From Cohnella candidum (GTDB taxonomy: Bacteria; Bacillota; Bacilli; Paenibacillales; Paenibacillaceae): DNA of 64,000 nucleotides. The stretch lies in assembly GCF_003713065.1 (NCBI RefSeq), contig NZ_CP033433.1:3411001-3475000 (forward strand), in the 5' to 3' direction. Below, piece after piece: positions 2,402-64,000 of this stretch. The first letter of the stretch is position 1; each line of letters opens with the position of its first letter. The translations under genes were made by a program, and so were the position numbers. A model generated the notes under the pieces. It had not been told where the DNA came from and searched no databases. It worked only from the letters and a program-made list of their open reading frames with translations.

Positions 2402-3352
2402 TTAGTCGAACCAGCCCTTGCGCCTGAACCAAACGTACATGCCGACCCCCAGCACGGCCATGACGGCCAGCACGCCGAAATAGCCGAAGTGCCAGTTCAG
2501 CTCGGGCATATTGTGGAAGTTCATGCCGTAGATGCCCGCGATGAAGGTCAGCGGCATGAAAATCGTCGTGATGACGGTCAGCGTCTTCATGATCATGTTC
2601 ATTCGGCTGGAACGGATGGAATCGTAGCTGTCCCGCAAATCGGCCGTCATCTCGCGGTTGGACTCGATCATGTCGGTCAGCTTCAGCAAATGGTCGTATA
2701 TATCGGTGAAATAGGCGTTATGCTCGCGAATGCCCGGGATTTTGTCGGAGTTCAGCGTCCGGTAAAGCAGGTCGCGCATCGGGATGACCGTCCGGCGGAG
2801 CCTCAGCAAATCGTTCCGGATGTCGTACACTTCGTCGATGAGCGTCTGCAGCTTTTCGCTCTCTTCCCGGCTCTCCAGGTCGTTCATATGGTCTTCGATC
2901 TTGTACAGCGTCGGAAAATAGTTGTCGACCAGCTTATCCATGATCAGGTACGCCACGTAGTGGTGATCCTGCTTCTTGTACAGTCCGTCCTCCTGCATTC
3001 GCCGCCAGGCTTCGTCCACTTCCGCGGAAGGCTTCAAATGGAACGTCACGATGCCTCTCGGGCCGAGGAAAAAGTTGATTTCTTCCGCTTTGAGCGTTTC
3101 GGTATCGATGCCGTGGATGACAAAGAAATGCGTATCCGCATAGTGATCGAGCTTGGGCCGCTGCAGGAGGTGCAGGCAGTCTTCGATCGCGAGGGGATGA
3201 AAATGGAAATAGCTGTCCAGCAGCTTCGTTTCATCCTCCGTCGGGCAATCGAAATCGACCCAAAACCATTTGATGCCGGGGTCGGTCAAGTTGTGCAGGG
3301 GGATGTTTTCGATTTTATCCCCATTGTCCGATATGGCCAGAGTCCGCAGCAA
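2402..3352 (-). CDS. corA: CorA-type magnesium/divalent cation channel
   Basis: A 316-residue protein with the CorA layout: a soluble alpha/beta N-terminal funnel, a long helix rich in charged residues (around 150-250) and two C-terminal membrane segments. The signature YGMNF (GMN selectivity motif) follows the first membrane helix, near residue 285. The C-terminus is basic (FRRKGWFD), as usual. The start is TTG at 3352 with GAGGTGAT 5-6 nt upstream. It forms a homopentameric Mg2+ channel in the cytoplasmic membrane. The 122-bp upstream gap is too short for a magnesium riboswitch. Confidence 0.93.
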   Translation of the reverse strand: MLRTLAISDNGDKIENIPLHNLTDPGIKWFWVDFDCPTEDETKLLDSYFHFHPLAIEDCLHLLQRPKLDHYADTHFFVIHGIDTETLKAEEINFFLGPRGIVTFHLKPSAEVDEAWRRMQEDGLYKKQDHHYVAYLIMDKLVDNYFPTLYKIEDHMNDLESREESEKLQTLIDEVYDIRNDLLRLRRTVIPMRDLLYRTLNSDKIPGIREHNAYFTDIYDHLLKLTDMIESNREMTADLRDSYDSIRSSRMNMIMKTLTVITTIFMPLTFIAGIYGMNFHNMPELNWHFGYFGVLAVMAVLGVGMYVWFRRKGWFD

Positions 3353-3474
3353 GTACGATCACCTCACGGTCATTATGCGCTTCCCGGACTCCTTTTGGCA
3401 ACATCCGGCACGTGATAGCCGCCCGCCGATCCGCGCAAGCTAAACAGGATCCGGTGACGAAGGAGGTTGAAACC

Positions 3475-3564
3475 ATGGGAGCCAAGCAACAAGGGCACGG
3501 CCGTCAGAATACGACGACCCGTTCGACCGACAAGAAAGGCAATTCATCCGGCAACAACCACTGA
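3475..3564 (+). CDS. Small hydrophilic protein, 29 residues
   Basis: A short reading frame starting MGAKQQGHGRQNT and ending SSGNNH. The start is preceded by a near-consensus AAGGAGGT about 7 nt upstream, and a strong intrinsic terminator begins 9 nt after the stop, so it has a complete gene's signals. The product is basic, polar and without hydrophobic segments, resembling small conserved Bacillales proteins of unknown function. I do not recognise a named family. No function is assigned. Confidence 0.6.
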   Translation: MGAKQQGHGRQNTTTRSTDKKGNSSGNNH

Positions 3565-3572
3565 CGAGCGGA

Positions 3573-3599
3573 AGAGCCGTCCCTCGGGACGGCTCTTTC
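3573..3599 (+). terminator. Intrinsic terminator of the small ORF
   Basis: An 11-bp perfect stem (AGAGCCGTCCC / GGGACGGCTCT) with a 2-nt loop is followed by TTTCGG. It starts 9 nt after the 29-codon gene. Confidence 0.8.
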
Positions 3600-3696
3600 G
3601 GCTTATTTGCGGTGCATTTTGACTTCGAGGAACTATCCATCGCCGCGGAATATGAGATAATAGGAAACAGAAACCGGGCGAAAGGAGCTTTTCTCC

Positions 3697-4545
3697 TTGA
3701 AAGAACGCGAATGGGGCTGGACGGCCCGAGGCGGAAACAAAGTTTACGCTTGCGAATGGACGCCGGACGCAGGGCCGGGTGCGGCCGAAGCGGTAATCCT
3801 GATCACCCACGGCATGGGGGAGCACACCGGCCGATACGTCCACGTGGCGGAATGGTTTACGGCGCGAAGCTATGCCGTGTTGGGCTTCGACCAGTTAGGC
3901 CACGGACGTACGGACGGCAAACGCGGGCACACGGATTCCTATGAAGATTTGCTGGAAGGGATCGACCGGATGCTCGAGGAGGCGGACCGGCGTTTTCCCG
4001 GCAAACCCATATTTCTGTGGGGACACAGCATGGGCGGCAATTTGACGCTGAACTACGCGCTCCGGCGCAAGCCTGACGTTGCCGGCGTCGTCGTGCTGAG
4101 CCCTTGGCTGAAGCTCGCCTTCGATCCGCCGGCGCTTACCGTTATCGCGGCCCGCCTGCTGGAGAAGGTGTACCCGAAATTCACCAACGACCGGCCGTTC
4201 GACCCGACCCACCTGACCTCCGATCCGGAGATGCTCGTGAAGCTAAGAGAGGATCGCCGGGGACACGGCATGATCACCGCACGATTCTTCTTCGGCGTGC
4301 ACCGCGCGGGCCGATGGGCGCTGGAGCATGCGCAAGAACTGGCCCTCCCCTTGCTCCTCATGCAAGGCGACGCCGACCGCGTCACTTCCATCGCCGCCAG
4401 CCGCAAGTTCGCGGAACGGGCCGGTTCGTTATGTACGTTTCGGGAATGGCCGGGATTCCGCCACGAGCTGCACAATGAACGGGGCCGCGAGGATGTGTTC
4501 CGGGTCATCGACGACTGGTCGAGGGAACGGTTGAGACAGGGTTAG
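3697..4545 (+). CDS. Alpha/beta hydrolase, monoacylglycerol lipase-like
   Basis: A 282-residue serine hydrolase of the lysophospholipase/monoglyceride lipase group. The nucleophile elbow is WGHSMGGN (Ser near residue 111), and the region ILITHGMGEHTGRY carries the HGxxEHxGRY oxyanion motif of this family. Asp in MQGDADRVTS and His in PGFRHELHNE complete the triad. The start is TTG at 3697 with AAAGGAG 9 nt upstream. It probably cleaves glycerides or lysophospholipids in the cytoplasm. It stands alone between two terminators. Confidence 0.87.
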   Translation: MKEREWGWTARGGNKVYACEWTPDAGPGAAEAVILITHGMGEHTGRYVHVAEWFTARSYAVLGFDQLGHGRTDGKRGHTDSYEDLLEGIDRMLEEADRRFPGKPIFLWGHSMGGNLTLNYALRRKPDVAGVVVLSPWLKLAFDPPALTVIAARLLEKVYPKFTNDRPFDPTHLTSDPEMLVKLREDRRGHGMITARFFFGVHRAGRWALEHAQELALPLLLMQGDADRVTSIAASRKFAERAGSLCTFREWPGFRHELHNERGREDVFRVIDDWSRERLRQG

Positions 4546-4560
4546 ATAACCGAGATACGA

Positions 4561-4604
4561 CAAAGCGCCGCCTCCCCCGATGGGTGAGCGGCGCTTTGCG
4601 GTTT
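4561..4604. terminator. Bidirectional terminator
   Basis: An 11-bp perfect stem (CAAAGCGCCGC / GCGGCGCTTTG) lies between the convergent hydrolase and cytochrome genes, with T/A-rich flanks on the plus side. Confidence 0.75.
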
Positions 4605-4618
4605 TGACGGTTAGAACG

Positions 4619-5017
4619 TTATCCTTTTTTGGCGGCGAGCCAATCCGCCAGCGCATGGATTTCCGCGTCGGACAGCACGCCTTTGAAAGCGGTCATGCCT
4701 CCGCCGCCGGCGGAAATTTTGGCCGCGATGGCGTCCGAGGACAACCGGGAACCGACGGCCGTCAGGTTCGGGCCGACGCCGCCATGCAGATCCGCGCCAT
4801 GGCAGGCGATGCAGTTCTGTTTGAACACGGCTTCCGCGTTGACGTTGCCGGCCGCCCCCGAAGGGGACGCTGCGGGAGAAGCCGGAGAAGCCGCAGGCGA
4901 GCCCGCCGGCGGAGCCGCGGGAGTCTGATCGGGCGCTCCGTTGTTGTTTCTCTGGCACGCCGAGATGGCGAGCACGAGGGCGAATACGAGGAAGACGGCA
5001 ACGACTTTGTTTCTCAT
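4619..5017 (-). CDS. Lipoprotein cytochrome c (c-551 type)
   Basis: A 132-residue small monohaem cytochrome. The N-terminus is a lipoprotein signal with lipobox AISAC (Cys near residue 21), then an Ala/Pro/Ser-rich linker to about residue 55. The haem site is NCIACHGAD (CxxCH), and the axial Met is probably in GGGGMTAFKG. This is the architecture of Bacillus CccB, a membrane-tethered electron carrier on the outer face. GGAGGAAATC precedes the ATG. It adjoins tatCA and a GMC oxidase, so it is a likely electron acceptor for that enzyme. Confidence 0.9.
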   Translation of the reverse strand: MRNKVVAVFLVFALVLAISACQRNNNGAPDQTPAAPPAGSPAASPASPAASPSGAAGNVNAEAVFKQNCIACHGADLHGGVGPNLTAVGSRLSSDAIAAKISAGGGGMTAFKGVLSDAEIHALADWLAAKKG

Positions 5018-5189
5018 GGCTGATTTCCTCCTGCGGAATGGTTTCTCGAAGCTTCTGGACAGTTTCCTGATCCTTTCGCCTTAGATTACCCCCGTTTCCA
5101 TCCCCCATACCTTCAAATCCCTTCTAAAACGAATGAATGGTTCGCGCAAGAATAGGAAACGCCGCAGTGGGTACGCTAAAACCACGGTC

Positions 5190-51805: not shown

Positions 51806-51927
51806 CGCTCATGGCGGTTTCCATGAGTGACCAGCTTTCGCAGGAGTTTACCCCGGTAAGAAGGCCTCGTTGCGCAAAAGATAAGACAGGGCCTTATGGC
51901 TACTATGCGCAAAAGGGGTTTTATGCC

Positions 51928-52776
51928 TTGAACTACCGCTCCTTAACGTTGGCCTGCACCATCGGTCTGTCTGCCGTGCTTTTCGCCGGTTGCGGAAACA
52001 ACAATGACGTAGGGACCCGCAGCACGAACCGCGGCAATCTGATCGGAACCCATGCTTATCATGGCTTAAACAACCGCGGCGGGATGTTGAATGGCGGAAC
52101 CTACGGCGGAACGGGCTCTACGGGCATGAGCACTTCCAGTATCGGTAATTCCGGTATCGGCGGAACCTACGGCGGAACGGGCATTTCCCCTTTGGGCACT
52201 TCCGGTTTCGGCGGCACTTATAACGGAACGGGCACTACGGGTATGGGCACGTACGGCGGAACGGGTACTTCAGGTTTCAACGGCACTTATGGCGGCACGA
52301 GCACTTCCGGTTTCGGCGGTAACACCGCAACGGGTACCGGATCCTACACGGGCACTTCGAGCGGAGGGACCTTCGGCAGCCTCAGCGCCACCGGCGGATT
52401 CAGCCTGCATGACCCGGATACGCTGTTGTTCGGGAACCTGATGATCGTTGGCCCGAAATCCCGGAATACGATGCTGGGAACCACAGGCGGTACCGGAACC
52501 GACGGCACTTCCCTCACAAGAAGCACGCATGCTCAAGCTTTCGGTCAGCAGTTCCGCGTGCTTCGCGTGACCGATTCCAAAGCCGTAGCCGCGCTTCACC
52601 GTTTAAAGCGGAACCTCACCGGCTCTTCGATCACCACGAAGTCCGACGCTTTGGCCAAGGATCTGCGGTATGTGCTGAAGAAAGCCACGGTCGTGCGCGG
52701 TACGACGGCTGGCGGAGGCGCGAATGCCACCGGTTTCACCGGGGGCAGAGTTTTAGCCGGAAACGGCATGCGTTAA
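51928..52776 (+). CDS. Gly/Thr-rich repeat lipoprotein
   Basis: 282 residues. Signal segment YRSLTLACTIGLSAVLFAGCGNN (lipobox FAGC), then about 120 residues of imperfect repeats GTYGGTGTSGFGG (Gly, Thr, Ser, Tyr), and a C-terminal globular part (FRVLRVTDSKAVAALHRLKRNLTG...LAKDLRYVLKKATVV) resembling the YhcN/YlaJ-type domain of the lipoprotein at 8.95 kb. TTG 51928 has AAAAGGGG 8 nt upstream; the frame continues upstream without a ribosome site. Possibly a spore coat/surface protein, by analogy only. Confidence 0.6.
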   Translation: MNYRSLTLACTIGLSAVLFAGCGNNNDVGTRSTNRGNLIGTHAYHGLNNRGGMLNGGTYGGTGSTGMSTSSIGNSGIGGTYGGTGISPLGTSGFGGTYNGTGTTGMGTYGGTGTSGFNGTYGGTSTSGFGGNTATGTGSYTGTSSGGTFGSLSATGGFSLHDPDTLLFGNLMIVGPKSRNTMLGTTGGTGTDGTSLTRSTHAQAFGQQFRVLRVTDSKAVAALHRLKRNLTGSSITTKSDALAKDLRYVLKKATVVRGTTAGGGANATGFTGGRVLAGNGMR

Positions 52777-54156: not shown

Positions 54157-54969
54157 CTAACGGCACACCATCAGTAAGTTGCCGTCAGGATCGCGGAAAA
54201 CGAACCAGTGGCCGTTTTCGATTTCCGTGACGAGTTCGACATCTTGCTCTTTCATGAACCTATAGGCTGCCTCAATGTCCTTGGTCAGCAGCATGAATGC
54301 AGGCGTCTGAAACGTTGGAGGACCGTCGGGTTCCTTGCCGCCCCACCCGGGCATCGTATCAAGGATGATACCGGGCTCTTCCATCGGAAGCGGGCACAAG
54401 TGTCCGTTCATGATTTCCGCCGATTCCACCGGCATGCCGAGAATCCGGCAATACCAGTCCCGCGCCTTCTCGATGTCCCGAACCGGCACGAAATTCGAGC
54501 CGGTCCTACGCAGGAAAGGGGTGGTCGGCGTTTCCTCCTGCAGTCTCTCCGCTTCCGCTTGTCCCTGCTGCTGCTCAGACTTGTATTGCTTGATGAGAGC
54601 GGCGACGTCGATGCCATCTATCGTCAACCCATCGATTTTGCATCCCTCGATGCGTACATCGCTCAAGTCGCAAGAGGTGATGGAGCTCCCTGCGAGTTCG
54701 CACATTTCGAAGCGAAGCGGCCGCTGGGGCCCTTGATCTTCCCGGTAAGCCGGATGACCCGCCGGCGGCAATCCGATACCGTGTATGTACGCGCCGCCCA
54801 GCTGCGCCTCGAAAATCTCCAGATCCGACAGATCGGCGTCCCGGATCCGGATTCCGCTCATGTTCACGTTCGTGAATGTCGCCCCGCCGAGATTTACGCA
54901 TTCGAACTTGGCGCCGCTCACGTCGGCATTCCGTACCGTAGGCTGCTCCTTTTGATTGACGATCTCCAT
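54157..54969 (-). CDS. Pentapeptide-repeat/VOC-domain fusion protein
   Basis: 270 residues. The first ~115 residues are a right-handed pentapeptide helix (DVSGAKFECVNLGGATFTNVNMSGIRIRDADLSDLEIFEAQLGGAYI, later CELAGSSITSCDLSDVRIEGCKIDGLTI). After a linker (EQQQGQAEAERLQEE) a glyoxalase/VOC domain follows (FVPVRDIEKARDWYCRILGMPVE ... TIENGHWFVFRDPDGNLLMVC). The ATG at 54969 has GGAGG 9 nt upstream. This combination is unusual. Metal-dependent binding of a small molecule is possible; function unknown. Confidence 0.85.
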   Translation of the reverse strand: MEIVNQKEQPTVRNADVSGAKFECVNLGGATFTNVNMSGIRIRDADLSDLEIFEAQLGGAYIHGIGLPPAGHPAYREDQGPQRPLRFEMCELAGSSITSCDLSDVRIEGCKIDGLTIDGIDVAALIKQYKSEQQQGQAEAERLQEETPTTPFLRRTGSNFVPVRDIEKARDWYCRILGMPVESAEIMNGHLCPLPMEEPGIILDTMPGWGGKEPDGPPTFQTPAFMLLTKDIEAAYRFMKEQDVELVTEIENGHWFVFRDPDGNLLMVCR

Positions 54970-55070
54970 GGCCGCACAACCTCCACCAATGAGTTTTGAG
55001 TTCCATCCTGCTGAAGATTCCAACACTCCTACAATACAACGAAATCGATTTGGAAAATAGTTCCCAAAAT

Positions 55071-56629: not shown

Positions 56630-57835
56630 TTATTCGGATTTCACGGCGCGGAACACTCCCGTGTCCGCCGTGATGTCGATGCTTCCTTCCCGTTCCAGCC
56701 GCCCCCGGACATGCTGGCGGAATCGCTCCAGTGTTTCCCCCGTCATATACTGGCCGGCGTTCATCGGCGTAGAAGCCATGTATTGAATGAGCGGTTCGGC
56801 TTCCGTGACGCGGAGTCCGTCCCCGTATCGGATCGTCTCGCAGACCGGAAACCAGGGCTTGAGTATCGCTTCCCCGTTCTCTAAGTGGAACCGTTCCATC
56901 ACGGGATCGAGCACCTGCATGTCGGGCTGGAACTCCCGGGCCAGCTCTTCCATCTCGCGGAGATGGCGTTTCCCCATCGTGGTGGCGTAAAGCGTTCCTC
57001 CCGGCTTCAGGATGCGCCGAAGCTCGGCGATCGCCCGCGGAATATCGCCCACGTGGTACAGCATATGGCCGGCGATGACGACGTCGAATTCGCCGTCTTC
57101 GAACGGCAGGGCCTGGACGTCCGCCGCGACGAACTTCATTCGGTTGCCGAGGTCGCCGAGATTGAGGCGCGCGGCCTCCAGCATGCCGGAGGAGATGTCC
57201 GCGAGCGTGACGCTCCACCGGAGCGGAATGCGTTCGCCGTTTCTCCGCCACAGAGATCCGTCTCCGCAACCGATGTCCGCGACCTTTAGATCGCCCTTCA
57301 GCGGAAGGCGCTCGAACAACCACCGGTGCCAGCCCGTAGGATTCTCGCCGAACCGGTCGTACAGCCGTATTCGCGCCTGCAGCCGGGCCGCATTGCGGTA
57401 TTGCACCCCCCAGTCGCGGTCTTGGCGGATCGTCTCCATGATGCGTGCCAAACCGTCCCAGTCCGCCTCTTCCGTCTGCCGGTCCAGCATGCCGATCGCT
57501 TCCTCGATCGCTTGGGACACGAACTGCATGTGGTTGATTTTATGCCGGATCATCTCCTGCTGCGCCAGGAAGGAGCTCTTCAAATCCCGTTCGGGCAGCG
57601 ACGGGTCGTCGATGATCCTTTGGATGTCCGCCAGTGGCATCCCGATGTATTTCAGCGCCTGGATCTTCTGCAGCCGGATCAAATCTTCCTTGCCGTACCG
57701 CCGGGCGGAGCTAATCTGGCGAACGGTCGGCTTGAGCAGCCCGATTTGGTCGTAATAGCGCAGCGTTCTGAGCGTGATGCCCGTTCGGCGCGCGATCTGT
57801 CCGGTCGTCCATTGTTCGGGATCTTTCCGATCCAT
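56630..57835 (-). CDS. MerR-family regulator fused to SAM-dependent methyltransferase
   Basis: 401 residues. The N-terminal MerR helix-turn-helix (TTGQIARRTGITLRTLRYYDQIGLLKPTVRQISSARRYGKEDLIRLQKIQALKYIGMPLADI) and coiled coil (to about residue 125) precede a class I methyltransferase: LKVADIGCGDGSLWRR, VTLADISSGMLEAARL, FEDGEFDVVIAGHMLYHV. GGAGAGGAGC lies upstream of the ATG, and a 19-bp-spacer promoter at 57879-57909 fits MerR control. The fused enzyme domain replaces the usual effector-binding domain; it may sense or modify the effector. Confidence 0.87.
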   Translation of the reverse strand: MDRKDPEQWTTGQIARRTGITLRTLRYYDQIGLLKPTVRQISSARRYGKEDLIRLQKIQALKYIGMPLADIQRIIDDPSLPERDLKSSFLAQQEMIRHKINHMQFVSQAIEEAIGMLDRQTEEADWDGLARIMETIRQDRDWGVQYRNAARLQARIRLYDRFGENPTGWHRWLFERLPLKGDLKVADIGCGDGSLWRRNGERIPLRWSVTLADISSGMLEAARLNLGDLGNRMKFVAADVQALPFEDGEFDVVIAGHMLYHVGDIPRAIAELRRILKPGGTLYATTMGKRHLREMEELAREFQPDMQVLDPVMERFHLENGEAILKPWFPVCETIRYGDGLRVTEAEPLIQYMASTPMNAGQYMTGETLERFRQHVRGRLEREGSIDITADTGVFRAVKSE

Positions 57836-57979: not shown

Positions 57980-58894
57980 TTACCGGAACAAATTCTTCAA
58001 CACGAACCAGACGTTCGCCGGCCGTTCCGCCAGGCGCCTCATGAAATAGCCGAACCAATCGATGCCGTAGGGGACGTAAACGCGGACGCGGTAACCTTCG
58101 CCGACCAATCTCCGCTGGAGGTCCTCCGCGATCCCGTACAGCATCTGGAATTCGAACTTATCATGCGGGATGCCGCGATCCCAGATATACCCCTTGATCT
58201 CCTCCACCACGGACTCGTCGTGGGTGGCGATGGCCGCGTAATTCCCGTTGTTCAGCTGTTGCCGGATGATTTTCCGGTAATTGTCGTCCACCTGCTTCTT
58301 CTCGGGGTAGGCCACGCGGGGGGATTCCTTATAAGCCCCTTTCACGAGACGCATGTTCGCCCGGTACGCCGCCAAATCCGCGATATCCTGTTCGCTGCGG
58401 TACAAATACGCTTGGATGACGACCCCGACGTTATCGAATTCTTCCCTTAGCCTGCGGTAAAGGTCCAGCGTCTGCTGGCAGTGGGAAAAATCCTCCATGT
58501 CGATCCGGACGAAATTCCCGTGCTTTCGGGCGGTTTCCAAAATGGCGCGCATGTTGCGGAGGCACGTTTCTTCGTTCAGGTCGAGGCCGAGCGAGGTCAG
58601 CTTCAGCGACAAATTGGAGTCGACGCCGGACTCGGCGATCGCCTCCAGCGTGCGGATGCACATGTCTGCCGATTGGGCCGCTTCCGCTTCCGTCCCGACG
58701 AACTCTCCCAAATGGTCCAGCGTCGCCATCAAGCCCTCGCCGTTGAGCCGCCGCACCGTCCGGATCGCGTGCTCGATCGTTTCCCCGGCCACGAAACGGC
58801 CGGCGCCGAACTTCAGCCCGTACTTGCGCGCCATCCGGTTCGCCGTGCGGCTTTTGCCGAGATGCTGGAAGGCGTTGCGAAGCATCGTCTCCAT
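57980..58894 (-). CDS. putM: Proline dehydrogenase
   Basis: 304 residues of the monofunctional FAD proline dehydrogenase: LSLKLTSLGLDL, FVRIDMEDFSHCQQTLDLYRR, VVIQAYLYRSEQDI, RLVKGAYKESPRVAYPEKKQVDDNYRK, ATHDESVVEEI, FEFQMLYGI and VRVYVPYGIDWFGYFMRRLAER (proline and FAD contacts). Oxidises proline to pyrroline-5-carboxylate at the membrane, passing electrons to the quinone pool. The product feeds RocA encoded two genes upstream. AAGGTGAT precedes the ATG. Confidence 0.93.
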   Translation of the reverse strand: METMLRNAFQHLGKSRTANRMARKYGLKFGAGRFVAGETIEHAIRTVRRLNGEGLMATLDHLGEFVGTEAEAAQSADMCIRTLEAIAESGVDSNLSLKLTSLGLDLNEETCLRNMRAILETARKHGNFVRIDMEDFSHCQQTLDLYRRLREEFDNVGVVIQAYLYRSEQDIADLAAYRANMRLVKGAYKESPRVAYPEKKQVDDNYRKIIRQQLNNGNYAAIATHDESVVEEIKGYIWDRGIPHDKFEFQMLYGIAEDLQRRLVGEGYRVRVYVPYGIDWFGYFMRRLAERPANVWFVLKNLFR

Positions 58895-58942: not shown

Positions 58943-59785
58943 TCACAAAATCTTTTTACCCAGCACCGAAGCCACCAAGCCCGCGATCAACCGCGCCGTT
59001 CTACGCTGGTCATCGAGGAACGGGTTCACTTCGGTGACGTCCATCGACGTCACCTTGCCCGAATCCGCCAGCAGCTCGCATGCAAAGTGCGCTTCGCGGA
59101 AATAAAGCCCGCCCGGCACCGCAGACACGACGCCCGGCGCCTCCAGCGGATCCAGGCAATCCGCGTCGAAGCTCACATGGATGCCGTCCGTCCCGCGGCC
59201 CGCGATTTCGAGCGCTTGCTGCACGACTTTTTCGATGCCCATCCGGTCGACTTCCGCCATCGTGAAGCAGTGGAGGCCTTCCGCCTTAATCCACTCGCGC
59301 TCGCTCGGCTGCACTTCGCGAAGGCCGATCAGAACGAGGTTTTCCTTGCGAACCTTGCCCACGCCCGCAACATCGATCTCCGTCTTGCCGAGGATCGAGG
59401 CCAGCGCCATTTCGTTCACGTAACCGGTCGAGCTCGTTTGCTCCGTCAGCAGGCTCGGATGCGCGTCGAACCAGATGACGCCCACGTTGCCGTGCTCACG
59501 GTTCAATCCGGCAATCGCGCCGATGGAGATGCTCCTATCTCCTCCCACGACGAGCGGAAACTCGCCTTCGGAGACCGCTTGCGACACTTTGCTTGCCAGC
59601 CGCTCGCTGACCTCCCGCACGTTGGCGCCGGTCAGCCTCTCTTCCTCCAGCTCCTGGCCGAGATGGCGGATCATCCTTCCCAGCCCGGCGTCCATGATGC
59701 TGTCCGCTCCCTGCTCGGCGCCCGGGCGGCCGGTTCTAACGGCGAACGGGACTTTGATTAATCGAATTTTACGGGCAGCCGCCAT
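58943..59785 (-). CDS. Arginase-family protein with altered active site
   Basis: 280 residues with the arginase/ureohydrolase fold. Of the six Mn ligands, His in GGDHS is replaced by Arg (GGDRS, residue 84), and the second Asp of DAHxD is Ser (DAHPS, residue 111). SFDADCLDP keeps both Asp residues. The substrate-binding GNxHGM motif reads GYVNEM, so the active-site His is lost too. MDVTEVNPFLDDQRRTA is intact. It is probably inactive as an arginase. It sits between rocA and putM, in the same operon as a normal arginase gene at 62642-63553, so a regulatory or structural role is likely. Confidence 0.85.
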   Translation of the reverse strand: MAAARKIRLIKVPFAVRTGRPGAEQGADSIMDAGLGRMIRHLGQELEEERLTGANVREVSERLASKVSQAVSEGEFPLVVGGDRSISIGAIAGLNREHGNVGVIWFDAHPSLLTEQTSSTGYVNEMALASILGKTEIDVAGVGKVRKENLVLIGLREVQPSEREWIKAEGLHCFTMAEVDRMGIEKVVQQALEIAGRGTDGIHVSFDADCLDPLEAPGVVSAVPGGLYFREAHFACELLADSGKVTSMDVTEVNPFLDDQRRTARLIAGLVASVLGKKIL

Positions 59786-59800: not shown

Positions 59801-61372
59801 TTACAACTTTCTCGAAGTCGCTTTGGCTTGCGTGAACAGAAGCAAATAATCGTATCCTCCGGCTTTCGAGTCGGTGCCGGACATGTTGAAGCCGCCGAAA
59901 GGATGGGCACCCACGAGCGCTCCCGTGCATTTGCGGTTGATGTACAGGTTGCCGCAGTGCATTTCCTCGAGCGCGTAGGCGATCCGGTCTTCATCCCGCG
60001 AGAAGAAAGAGCCGGTCAGCCCGAACTCGGTATCGTTGTACAGGGCGACGGCTTCGCGATAATCGCGTGCCTTGCCGATCGCCAATACGGGTCCGAAAAT
60101 TTCCTCCTGCATGATGCGGGCTTTGCCGTCGACGTCCGCGAACACGGTCGGCTCGATGTAATAGCCGTTAGGTTCGACGTCCGCTTTGCCGCCGCCCGCG
60201 ATCAGCCGTCCTTCACCTTTGCCGATCTCGATGTACTGCAGAATTTTCTCGTAAGCGTTCCGCTCCGCCACCGGTCCGCTTTTGAAGTTCAGTTCCGGCA
60301 GCCCCACGGCCCATGCCGCGGTCAGCTCGCGAACCCGCTCCACCACTTCATCGTAAACCGACTCCACGATGAAGGCGCGGGAACCGGCCGAACACTTCTG
60401 CCCTTGGTAGCCGAATGCGGAAACGACGATCGCTTGAGCCGCCGCCTCCAAGTCCGCCGTTTCATCCACCACGATGCCGTCCTTGCCGCCCATCTCCGCA
60501 ATGACGCGTTTGATCCAGATCTGGCCCTCCGCCGTTTTGGCCGCCAACTCGTTGATCCGCAGGCCGACTTCCTTGGAGCCGGTAAAGCTGATGAACCGCG
60601 TTTTCGGATGGGCGACCAGGTAGTCGCCGATCTCCGAGCCGCTGCCCGGCACGAAGTTGATGACGCCCGGCGGCAGCCCCGCCTCTTCCATCAGCTCCAC
60701 GAATTTATGGGCGATGACCGGAGTGACCGAGGCCGGCTTCAATAGCACCGTATTGCCGCTTACCACCGCGGCCGACGTCATGCCGGCACAGATGGCGAGC
60801 GGGAAATTCCATGGAGGAATGACGACGCCGACCCCGAGCGGGATGTAAGCGATCCGATTCCGCTCGCCCGCGACGGGAGTGAGCGGCCGGTGCTCGTTCG
60901 CTTCGCTCAGGCGGATCATTTCCCGTCCGTAGAACTCCAGGAAGTCGATCGCTTCCGCCGTGTCCGCGTCCGCTTCGGCCCAGTTTTTGCCCGCCTCGAA
61001 TACCATCATGGCCGAAAATTCATGCTTTCGTTCCCGCATCAGGCTTGCCGCCCGGAACAAATAGCCCGCGCGGGTTTCCGCCGGGACCCGCTTCCACGTC
61101 TCGAATGCCGCTAGCGCGGCTTCCAGCGCCTTCTCGGCCAGCTCCTTCGTCGCCTTGCTGACCCTGCCGACCACCTGTCCGATGTCCCCGGGATTGAGCG
61201 ATTCCGTCTTGCCGTCGGTCATGACTTTGTCGGCACCGATCCACAGCGGGTAGTCCCGGCCAAGCTCGCCTTTCACCTTGCGAAGCGCGGCCTCCATCGC
61301 CTCACGGTTCTCGGGCTGAGTAAAATCGGTAAACGGTTCGTTCGCGTAAGGCGCAAGCGTTGTCCTCTCCAT
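59801..61372 (-). CDS. rocA: 1-pyrroline-5-carboxylate dehydrogenase
   Basis: 523 residues. Aldehyde dehydrogenase superfamily: [20 protein letters not shown] (NAD site), [14 protein letters not shown], active-site Glu in [16 protein letters not shown] and Cys in [14 protein letters not shown]. Converts P5C/glutamate semialdehyde to glutamate. The ATG at 61372 has GGAGAGGAG upstream; the longer frame lacks signals. Receives substrate from RocD and PutM. Confidence 0.95.
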
Positions 61373-61397: not shown

Positions 61398-62600
61398 TTA
61401 GTAGGAAGACGATTGAAAAATCGATTGGATGCGGTTGACGGCCCAATCCAGCTGCTGCTCCGTGATGATGAGCGGAGGAGCGAACCGGATCGTCGTTTCG
61501 TGGGTTTCCTTGCACAAGATGCCAAGCTCCATCAGCTTCTCGCAGTAAGGCCTCGCCGGCTCGTTCAGTTCCAGCCCGATGAACAATCCCCGCCCGCGCA
61601 CCTCCCGGATGGCGGGATGGCGGATCGCCTTCAAGCGGCCCAGGAAGTAGACCCCCAGCTCTGCCGAACGGCCGGCCAGCTCTTCTTCTTCGAAAACCTC
61701 CATCGCGGCGATCGCGACGGCGCAGCCGAGCGGGTTGCCGCCGAACGTCGAGCCGTGGGAGCCGGGATCGAACACGCCGAGGATTTCGTCGTCCGCGGCG
61801 ACGGCCGAGATCGGAAAGACGCCTCCCCCGAGCGCTTTCCCGAGGATGTACAGGTCGGGCTTCACGCCTTCCCAGTCGCAGGCGAACGGCATGCCCGTTC
61901 GGCCGAAACCGGTCTGGATTTCATCGGCCGCGAAGAGCACACCGTTGTCCCGGCACAGCTCGTAAGCGGCTTTCAGGAACCCTTCCGGCGGAAGGACGAT
62001 GCCGGCTTCGCCCTGGATCGGCTCGATCAGCAGCGCGGCGGTGTTCGGCGTCATCGCCGCCCGCAGCGCCTCCAGATCGCCGTACGGAATGATCCGGAAG
62101 CCCGGCGTGAACGGGCCGAACCCGTCCCTGTACTCCGCCGCCGAGGAGAAGGAAGTGACCGTGATCGTGCGTCCGTGGAAATTCCCCTCGCACACGATGA
62201 TCTCCGCCTGGTTCTCGGGCACCTTCTTCACCCGGTACGCCCAGCGGCGGACGGCCTTGATCGCCGTCTCCACCGCTTCGGCGCCCGTATTCATCGGAAG
62301 GATGCGGGACTTGCCGGTCAAGGCGGCCAGCTTCTCATAAAATACGCCCAGGTTGCCGCTATGGAACGCCCTCGAAGTCAAGGTCACTTGGTCCGCCTGG
62401 TCCTTGAGCGCCTGGATGATTTTCGGATGCCGGTGTCCGTGGTTCAAAGCGGAGTAGGCGCTGAGCATATCCATGTATTTCTTGCCCGACGGATCCTCCA
62501 CCCAAACGCCTTCCGCTTTCGAGATGACGATCGGCAGCGGATGGTAATTGCGGGCGCCGTAGCGTACGGTTTGCCCGATGATGTCCATGGCCGCGTTCAT
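61398..62600 (-). CDS. rocD: Ornithine aminotransferase
   Basis: 400 residues, class III PLP aminotransferase: [72 protein letters not shown] Lys in [37 protein letters not shown]. Converts ornithine to glutamate semialdehyde. AAAGGAGTG precedes the ATG, and the gene lies 25 nt upstream of rocA. Confidence 0.95.
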
Positions 62601-62641: not shown

Positions 62642-63553
62642 CTACATGATGCTTTCCCCGAACAGGGAGCCGATCAGCTCCACGGCGGTTTGCGCCGTTT
62701 TATTGTTCACGTCGAGCGCCGGATTCACTTCCACCACTTCGGCGGACACGAGATTCGCGCTCTCGTGGAGCAGTTCCATCGCAAAATGGCTCTCCCGATA
62801 GGATAGACCTCCGTTAACCGGCGTGCCGACGCCCGGAGCGGCGCTCGGGTCCATCCCGTCCAGGTCCAGGCTCAGATGGACGCCGTCCGTTCCCGTCGTG
62901 ACGCGCTCCAGCGCTTCGTCCATGACCGCCTTCATGCCGTAGCGGTCGATGTCGTGCATCGTGAATACCCGGATGCCCTGTTCCCGGAGAAACGTCCGTT
63001 CACCTGGATCCACCGAACGCGCGCCGATAATGACGACCTTGGAGGGATCCACCTTCGTCTGCTCCCCGGCGATGGACACCAGGCTGTGATGGCCGTATCC
63101 GAGCAGCACGGCCAGCGACATCCCGTGGATGTTGCCGGACATCGTCGTCTCTTCCGTGTTCACGTCCGCATGGGCATCGAACCAAATCACGCCGAGCTTC
63201 TTCACGTGCTGCAGCACGCCTTTGATCGTCCCGATGGCGAGACTATGGTCGCCGCCCAGGACGAGCGGCAATTGGCCTTTTGCCATCTCTTGAGACACCC
63301 GTGCCGTCAGATCGGTATTGACCCTGGCGATCTCGGCGATATATTTCAGCTTCTCTCCGGGGCCGCAGGCTTCGATGTTACGATTGACATGGACGTCCCC
63401 TACGTCGCTCACGCGATACCCGAGAGACTCCAGTTTGGCTTGCAGATTCGAACTTCGGATCGCGCTTGGACCCATCTCGACGCCGGGACGGTCCGCTCCG
63501 AGCTGAATCGGTACGCCGATCAAGGATATGTTGCGGTTCTTCGTTGCGATCAT
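62642..63553 (-). CDS. rocF: Arginase
   Basis: 303 residues with all Mn ligands: [10 protein letters not shown] (His 103), [11 protein letters not shown] (Asp 126, His 128, Asp 130), [20 protein letters not shown] (two Asp), and the substrate His in [10 protein letters not shown] (143). Hydrolyses arginine to ornithine and urea. The ATG overlaps the LysR stop in an ATGA arrangement, so translation is coupled. It is the first enzyme of the pathway and the second gene of the unit. Confidence 0.95.
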
Positions 63554-64000
63554 GCGCGTTCCCCCATTCCACCCATATTGGCCCAAATCCGCCGCACGAT
63601 TCCGGAAAAGGTCCGGATGTTGTTTTCCTCCGCCCTGCTTTTGAGGACGACCATCGAGGTCTCGATCTGCTCCGGAAAACGGTGCAGCTCGATTAACGTG
63701 CCTTTGTTCAACTCTTCCTCCACCAGCGCGGAGCCGAGCAGCGCCACGCCCGTATGGTGAAGGACGGTGCGTTTGATCGTTTCGTCGCTGATGCATTCGA
63801 TATAGCTGCTTGGGGCGAAACCGACGTCATCCAGGCACTCATTGACCATGAGTTGCAGATTGGAGCCCGATTTATACGTAATGAAAGGATACTTCGTCAG
63901 AAGCTCCTCCAGGGAATGCTCTTCGAACAGTTCCTTGGTCGTCACGAGCACGAAATCTTCCTTGCCGAGCGGCTGCGACTCCATCAGAGGGGACCGGCAA
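63550..64000 (-). CDS. LysR-family regulator, C-terminal part
   Basis: The visible ~149 residues are a LysR effector-binding domain (PLGKEDFVLVTTKELFEEHSLEELLTKYPFITYKSGSNLQLMVNECLDDVGFAPSSYIECISDETIKRTVLHHTGVALLGSALVEEEL). The helix-turn-helix part is past the right edge. Its stop overlaps the rocF ATG. It probably regulates the arginine operon; B. subtilis uses RocR/AhrC instead. Effector unknown. Confidence 0.85.
   Translation of the reverse strand, partial: CRSPLMESQPLGKEDFVLVTTKELFEEHSLEELLTKYPFITYKSGSNLQLMVNECLDDVGFAPSSYIECISDETIKRTVLHHTGVALLGSALVEEELNKGTLIELHRFPEQIETSMVVLKSRAEENNIRTFSGIVRRIWANMGGMGERA

Follow-up and report, generated by a model that had tools for sequence, protein, structure and literature searches.

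We found that the predicted arginine-degradation operon in the window, the whole 64,000-nucleotide stretch of DNA analyzed here, encodes two arginase-family proteins: a canonical arginase, RocF, and a conserved arginase-family pseudoenzyme, pseudo-RocF. The reading that we favor, at slightly better than even odds (probability roughly 0.5), is that pseudo-RocF is a non-catalytic partner subunit that would co-assemble with arginases of the RocF1 clade, to which the window's RocF belongs, and support or tune them. The arginase fold, the ligand losses, a single origin, purifying selection, and clustering with RocF1 genes were all established by computation. An earlier note on this DNA had suggested a conserved, non-catalytic role, and this suggestion gained support: the protein recurs in 31 genomes, 30 aligned copies form one clade, and dN/dS is far below 1.

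The genes of the cluster lie on the minus strand in the order lysR, rocF, rocD, rocA, pseudo-arginase, putM (Table 1), and the stretch probably forms one operon. The lysR stop codon and the rocF ATG overlap, the pseudo-arginase ATG follows the end of rocA after 15 nt, and 48 nt separate the pseudo-arginase stop codon from the putM start. On the minus strand, AAAGGAGG lies 9 nt upstream of the pseudo-arginase ATG, from which the frame is open over 280 codons. The protein shares 39% identity with RocF and lacks ∼20 residues of the RocF N-terminal region. Pfam Arginase (PF00491) matched its residues 6–275 (E = 1.7e-63, 215 bits vs. a gathering score of 22). With the curated RocF model of NCBIfam (TIGR01229), it scored 214 bits, under the cut-off of 227.6; the window's RocF scored 335 bits. 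These two proteins are the only PF00491 matches in the 5.29-Mb genome.

Table 1. Genes of the predicted arginine-degradation operon, with their positions in the window
Feature	Position	Strand	Basis
Pseudo-arginase (pseudo-RocF), 280 aa	58943..59785	−	ORF, PF00491 domain, active-site residues, model
RocF, arginase of the RocF1 clade with canonical residues at every ligand position	62642..63553	−	TIGR01229 above cut-off
rocD, ornithine aminotransferase (class-III aminotransferase)	61398..62600	−	
rocA, 1-pyrroline-5-carboxylate dehydrogenase (Aldedh)	59801..61372	−	
putM, proline dehydrogenase	57980..58894	−	
lysR-type regulator, 3′ part, continues beyond window edge	63550..64000	−	

Active-site residues are given in rat arginase numbering. 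RocF keeps all six metal ligands and His141. As the earlier note had described, the second arginase-fold ORF carries GGDRS, DAHPS, and GYVNEM along with the later motifs SFDADCLDP and TEVNP. The six-ligand string of pseudo-RocF reads R-D-H-S-D-D, not H-D-H-D-D-D, owing to H101R and D128S. Metal A therefore lacks two ligands, and for metal B the set is formally complete (D124, H126, D232, and D234 are retained, as is E277). The loss of two ligands and the substrate His (H141N) had thus been recognized correctly, but that tally was too low, since N130L, N139Y, D183Q, and T246S are replaced as well. The protein has neither the six ligands of an active Mn2 arginase nor its His141, N130, D183, and T246.

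The fold itself is kept. An AlphaFold2 model, built on an alignment of pseudo-RocF with 23 relatives, had a pLDDT of 93.8 and a pTM of 0.93 and superposed on B. subtilis arginase (PDB ID code 6dkt) with Z = 44.6 and an rmsd of 1.1 Å over 275 residues, bearing out the retention of the fold. The best solved matches were the arginases of B. subtilis, B. cereus, and B. caldovelox (Z 44.4–44.6, rmsd 1.1–1.3 Å, 275–279 residues), and both domain score and structure place the protein in the arginase superfamily (PF00491). It resembles the Bacillus RocF arginases (6dkt, 6nbk, and 1cev) in fold, in 38–42% identity over the structural alignment, and in interface-type residues, but differs from them in its replaced active-site residues and in scoring below the NCBIfam RocF cut-off.

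We searched with pseudo-RocF in 394 genomes of its family (f1) and in samples of 392 genomes in its order and 398 in its class, which overlap, and added a scan of named genomes. Ligand positions were read, in fetched proteins only, in 193 distinct ORF pieces: 159 were canonical at the six ligands and His141, and 34 were odd. Two of the odd pieces come from Acidobacteriota (L049 and L050); these arginases read GGDQS and are canonical at the other named active-site residues, so H101Q is their only change and they were excluded from the count, and two halves around an assembly gap in G282 were taken as one genome and omitted from later trees and residue counts. Pseudo-RocF is present in 31 genomes, a figure that rests on the fetched proteins inspected and may miss some members. 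They fall into three families of one order: 18 in f1 (13 inside genus g15 and 5 outside), 9 in f6, and 4 in f7. Carriers include Cohnella sp. CFH 77786 and C. pontilimi, which share the genus code of the window genome, as well as Gordonibacillus kamchatkensis and Paenibacillus aestuarii. In the class-wide sample, 269 genomes had matches, and the best 30 loci held no pseudo-arginase besides the window's own; a plasmid search gave one match, at 41.6%.

All 30 gap-free copies, and also G282, have lost D128 (replaced by Ser, Thr, Gly, or Ala) and His141 (replaced by Asn or Gly), and since 31 genomes have this loss in common, chance is excluded. D234 is kept in 30/30 and E277 in 28/30. Beyond this, erosion is graded: one ligand is lost in 7 copies (D128, plus His141), two in 14, three in 5, and five in 4, and the remaining ligands vary (D232 is Asp, Ser, or Ala; H101 is His, Arg, or Gln). 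The Arg/Ser/Asn pattern pointed out in the window protein therefore holds as an exact triplet for three of the four Cohnella copies, and clade-wide only the loss of D128 and His141 carries over. Judging from residues, some of the seven members that lost a single ligand may keep weak metal binding or activity.

The 30 gap-free copies form one clade (99 bootstrap/95 SH-aLRT against six outgroup rows) in a tree computed with all named active-site columns and their neighbors (±1) masked. In a 139-row tree, the clade had an SH-aLRT of 90 and nested within Paenibacillales arginases; an earlier, unmasked 91-row tree supported 19 copies at 97. NG86 dN/dS was 0.030–0.184 for seven f1 pseudo-RocF pairs and 0.118–0.208 for four f7 pairs; RocF1 from the genomes of the seven f1 pairs gave 0.026–0.114. 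YN00 values were similar or lower where computed, with no value for two of the seven f1 pairs. Pseudo-RocF had the higher ratio in 6/7 f1 pairs; constraint on it is somewhat weaker than on active RocF, yet far from absent.

This constraint is distributed unevenly along the protein. Nine of 306 comparable columns are near-fixed in 28 sister active arginases and changed or free in the pseudo-RocF clade, and 7 of these nine fall among the 13 named active-site columns (Fisher p = 1e-9, with columns treated as independent). Mean entropy over the 306 columns was 1.16 in the clade and 1.22 in the active sisters, values to be read knowing that closer relatedness within the pseudo-RocF sample reduces its entropy to some extent. 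The active-site loops (segment 100–135) are less conserved than in the active sisters (1.13 vs. 0.68), and the C-terminal segment 228–280 is more conserved (0.60 vs. 0.86). Interface-type residues D180, R230, E231, and E237 (pseudo-RocF numbering) are invariant in 30/30 copies; they correspond to D204, R255, E256, and E262 of rat arginase, which pack subunits. R261, R262, L266, G269, and L270 are likewise present in 30/30. Where B. caldovelox arginase has E278, 28/30 pseudo-RocF copies carry an acidic residue, as against 0/19 RocF1 and 0/28 sister active arginases. In B. caldovelox arginase, mutation of E278 breaks the hexamer, according to the account in PMC11271267. Residue conservation thus portrays a clade whose active site has been dismantled and whose assembly surface has been retained.

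The pseudo gene mostly accompanies one kind of arginase. A canonical rocF shares its cluster in 27 of the 31 genomes, and these clustered rocF genes belong to one clade, RocF1 (35 rows, 100/100). Nothing lies between the two genes in G425 and G435, where rocD is 5–6 kb away from the adjacent pair; elsewhere rocD, or rocD and rocA, intervene. An earlier RocF1 sample, in which 27/28 carried the pseudo gene, had been gathered mainly through that gene, and a search based on RocF lowered the proportion to 27/35. That search covered the 394 f1 genomes, the 75 f6 genomes matched in the order search, and nine more f6 or f7 genomes. Within f1, with both proteins as queries, 18 of the 19 genomes whose RocF scores above 450 bits (RocF1-type) carry the pseudo gene; among the f6 genomes searched, 9 of 16 RocF1 genomes do. 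The eight RocF1 genomes without it are seven related g37 genomes, where rocF stands beside rocD, and G003, in which putM directly follows rocA. None of the eight has a pseudo-RocF match at E ≤ 1e-30 anywhere in its genome.

At the fetched loci of RocF1-free genomes, an intact arginase adjoins rocD, often followed by putM or rocA; the pseudo gene therefore occupies the slot of an older arginase. Intact relatives at this locus, which the earlier note had taken as a sign of recent decay, do exist, but only in this ancestral arrangement, and the pseudo state is old. The rpoB tree separated f1 from f6 and f7 (support 100). Grouping of f1 was rejected for pseudo-RocF (p = 0.0001) and RocF1 (p = 0.0003), and both trees alike joined the Cohnella copies to G425 and G435 of f6. 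Family grouping was not rejected for rocD, rocA, and putM (support 80, 92, and 99, respectively), in trees that left out rocA and putM of G425 and G435 and rocD of G435 because they were outside the fetched stretch or too short. Family grouping was, however, rejected for lysR as well (p = 0.003), so that the discordance common to pseudo-RocF and RocF1 may be that of a module and not of a physical pair. These trees are read most simply as a joint transfer of rocF1 and the pseudo gene from one family to another, followed by loss of the pseudo gene in the g37 relatives. As a separate observation, locus L060 has a divergently oriented gene (3222–5018) between pseudo-arginase and putM that encodes a PAS/sigma-54 activator and is absent from the window operon; L061 and L179 have a divergent ORF of similar size there.

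The exceptions to this pairing limit what pseudo-RocF can be required for. Because eight RocF1 genomes of two lineages have no pseudo gene, RocF1 can do without it. His at the position of RocF N139 (rat numbering), a substrate contact, occurs in 7/8 RocF1 copies without the pseudo gene and 1/27 with it, an association seen after the fact with few independent events behind the counts. N139H in partner-less RocF may be a compensation. Before the seven g37 genomes were added, two RocF positions, 131 and 234, were typical of partnered copies, neither known to be interfacial. We did not count the long G003 RocF branch (0.74) as faster evolution after partner loss, as G003 rocD and rocA also diverge more than in the other three Cohnella relatives. 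Stem lengths in RocF1 were 0.26 for the seven g37 rows, not much above the 0.19 of the partnered G425 and G435.

In the four f7 genomes (G414, G419, G421, and G423; loci L191, L190, L187, and L189), the pseudo gene is present but not beside rocF. These copies are the most eroded (Q-T-Y-G-S/A-D, five of six ligands lost). Three of the genomes have an intact rocF of another clade elsewhere, and the rocF match of G423 is in two pieces. A ketopantoate-reductase-like gene adjoins the pseudo-arginase in G421. Since the f7 protein is also under purifying selection, it must either still act as a partner despite the distance between the genes or serve an independent function in f7. With 8/35 RocF1 genomes lacking the gene, four unlinked copies, and seven one-ligand losses, pseudo-RocF is not obligatory for RocF everywhere.

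Such exceptions speak for a protein that acts alone, outside RocF hexamers, as a homomeric sensor or moonlighting regulator (involving arginine or ornithine, LysR, or another roc enzyme). The four f7 copies are conserved with no neighboring rocF, one of them next to the ketopantoate-reductase-like gene, two RocF1 lineages manage without the pseudo gene, and E277 and D234 are kept almost throughout. However, the N130, N139, D183, and T246 contacts vary within the clade, which is odd for a conserved arginine sensor, and the 27 clustered copies all sit with a single RocF clade; we regard an independent role as rather unlikely. An enzyme for a different reaction, working through the remaining metal-B ligands or metal-free, would fit the intact metal-B set and E277 of the window protein. 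It is disfavored because the remaining ligands differ between subclades, down to the loss of five of six in four members, and because a new active site common to the clade would be expected to stay constant, yet most released columns are active-site columns. This makes a new activity improbable.

In rat arginase, replacing one such residue reduces activity but does not eliminate it. We count this, together with the 7/30 members that lost only D128 plus His141, in favor of a low-activity arginase kept as an isozyme. The window protein, however, combines seven active-site changes and shares its operon with a canonical RocF, and the four f7 members are far more eroded, leaving an isozyme little credit. 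Least believable is a decaying remnant left after RocF1 took over. It would account for the intact arginases next to rocD in RocF1-free genomes, for ligand loss graded by lineage, and for the eight RocF1 genomes without the gene, but simple decay is excluded because dN/dS is far below 1. The values of 0.03–0.21 and the age of the clade also led us to reject recent decay. The gene is moreover spread across three families, none of the pseudo-RocF matches listed in the family and order searches has an internal stop, and the C-terminal region is more conserved than in active relatives.

The partner-subunit reading would account for these patterns as follows. An intact ancestral Paenibacillales arginase would have coexisted in its genomes with RocF1, a second and canonical RocF, and lost catalysis once; most lineages would then have retained the dead protein as a non-catalytic partner. 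Using the conserved subunit interface, pseudo-RocF and RocF1 would assemble into mixed hexamers, in which pseudo-RocF might stabilize or tune the catalytic subunits, for example by sensing arginine or ornithine. The physical complex, its stoichiometry, and its effect on RocF1 activity, be it stabilization, allostery, or sensing, are what we infer. According to the same account of B. caldovelox arginase, the enzyme retains its kinetics without the hexamer (PMC11271267). Because of this and of the two partner-less RocF1 lineages, pseudo-RocF more probably affects the stability or regulation of RocF1 than is strictly needed by it.

The closest precedent is MetCaCb, a Ni-dependent metformin hydrolase, described in PMC11271267 as an α2β4 hexamer whose dead arginase-family subunit, MetCb, has five ligands changed and is needed for activity. 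MetCb resembles pseudo-RocF in its arginase fold, its lost metal ligands, and a gene beside an active arginase-family gene; its non-catalytic partner role is demonstrated, and that of pseudo-RocF inferred. Pseudo-RocF differs in belonging to a Bacillota arginine-degradation operon with a standard RocF as partner. MetCb-type subunits are characterized in that account by three to five mutated ligands out of six, compared with two in the window protein and one to five across its clade; pairing with an intact arginase-family gene is found in the window and in 27/31 genomes. The 56 MetCaCb-like pairs that it reports come from Proteobacteria, Actinomycetota, Acidobacteriota, and Planctomycetota, with none from Bacillota. 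Among PDB chains, pseudo-RocF scored 206 bits with B. cereus arginase and 68 bits with a chain named metformin hydrolase subunit B. Membership in the MetCb clade was rejected on these scores and not on a joint tree, and the pseudo-RocF clade nests inside Paenibacillales arginases. By analogy, a partner function like that of MetCb, evolved independently, is most likely.

Two more distant systems offer comparisons. The arginase-like TbARG of Trypanosoma brucei (4RHI) is described as an arginase fold evolved without a binuclear Mn cluster (Hai et al. 2015, as cited in PMC6988801). That absence is its likeness to pseudo-RocF, and its eukaryotic origin the difference. TbARG is not known to pair with an active arginase. 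Trypanosomatid prozymes of AdoMetDC and deoxyhypusine synthase, as outlined in PMC5201418 and PMC3663545, provide a working analogy, being dead paralogues that control an active partner; they are unrelated enzymes of unrelated organisms, and for pseudo-RocF activation is analogy only.

Arginases are usually described as single-gene homo-oligomers, as PMC11271267 puts it. Searches of the open-license literature in PMC turned up no report of this Bacillota pair, and as far as those searches show, such a cluster of an inactive and an active arginase is new in this group and pathway. If the partner-subunit reading is true, arginine breakdown in a Bacillota group has a second, unrecognized component. 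A fuller version, which we advance tentatively and at less than even odds, is that arginase in many of these Paenibacillales would be a two-gene enzyme: RocF1 stabilized or controlled by a dedicated dead subunit, a prozyme. This subunit would descend from an older arginase that had ceded catalysis, would have arisen separately from metformin hydrolase, and would since have disappeared from two lineages, whose RocF mostly carries N139H. Intermediate states coexist, namely an intact arginase at the ancestral position, copies paired with RocF that lack one to five ligands, partner-less RocF, and an unlinked lineage, and because these intermediates survive, the transition from enzyme to subunit could be tested stepwise. 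Catalytically dead copies can be listed as arginases by automatic annotation, given that the Pfam score of pseudo-RocF is far above the cut-off.

Three further ORFs elsewhere in the window stood out by eye. One is lipoprotein-like, with a long Gly/Thr-rich repeat region (51811–52776), and two are apparent fusions, of pentapeptide-like repeats with a glyoxalase-like domain (54157–55026) and of a MerR-like regulator with a methyltransferase-like domain (56630–57835).
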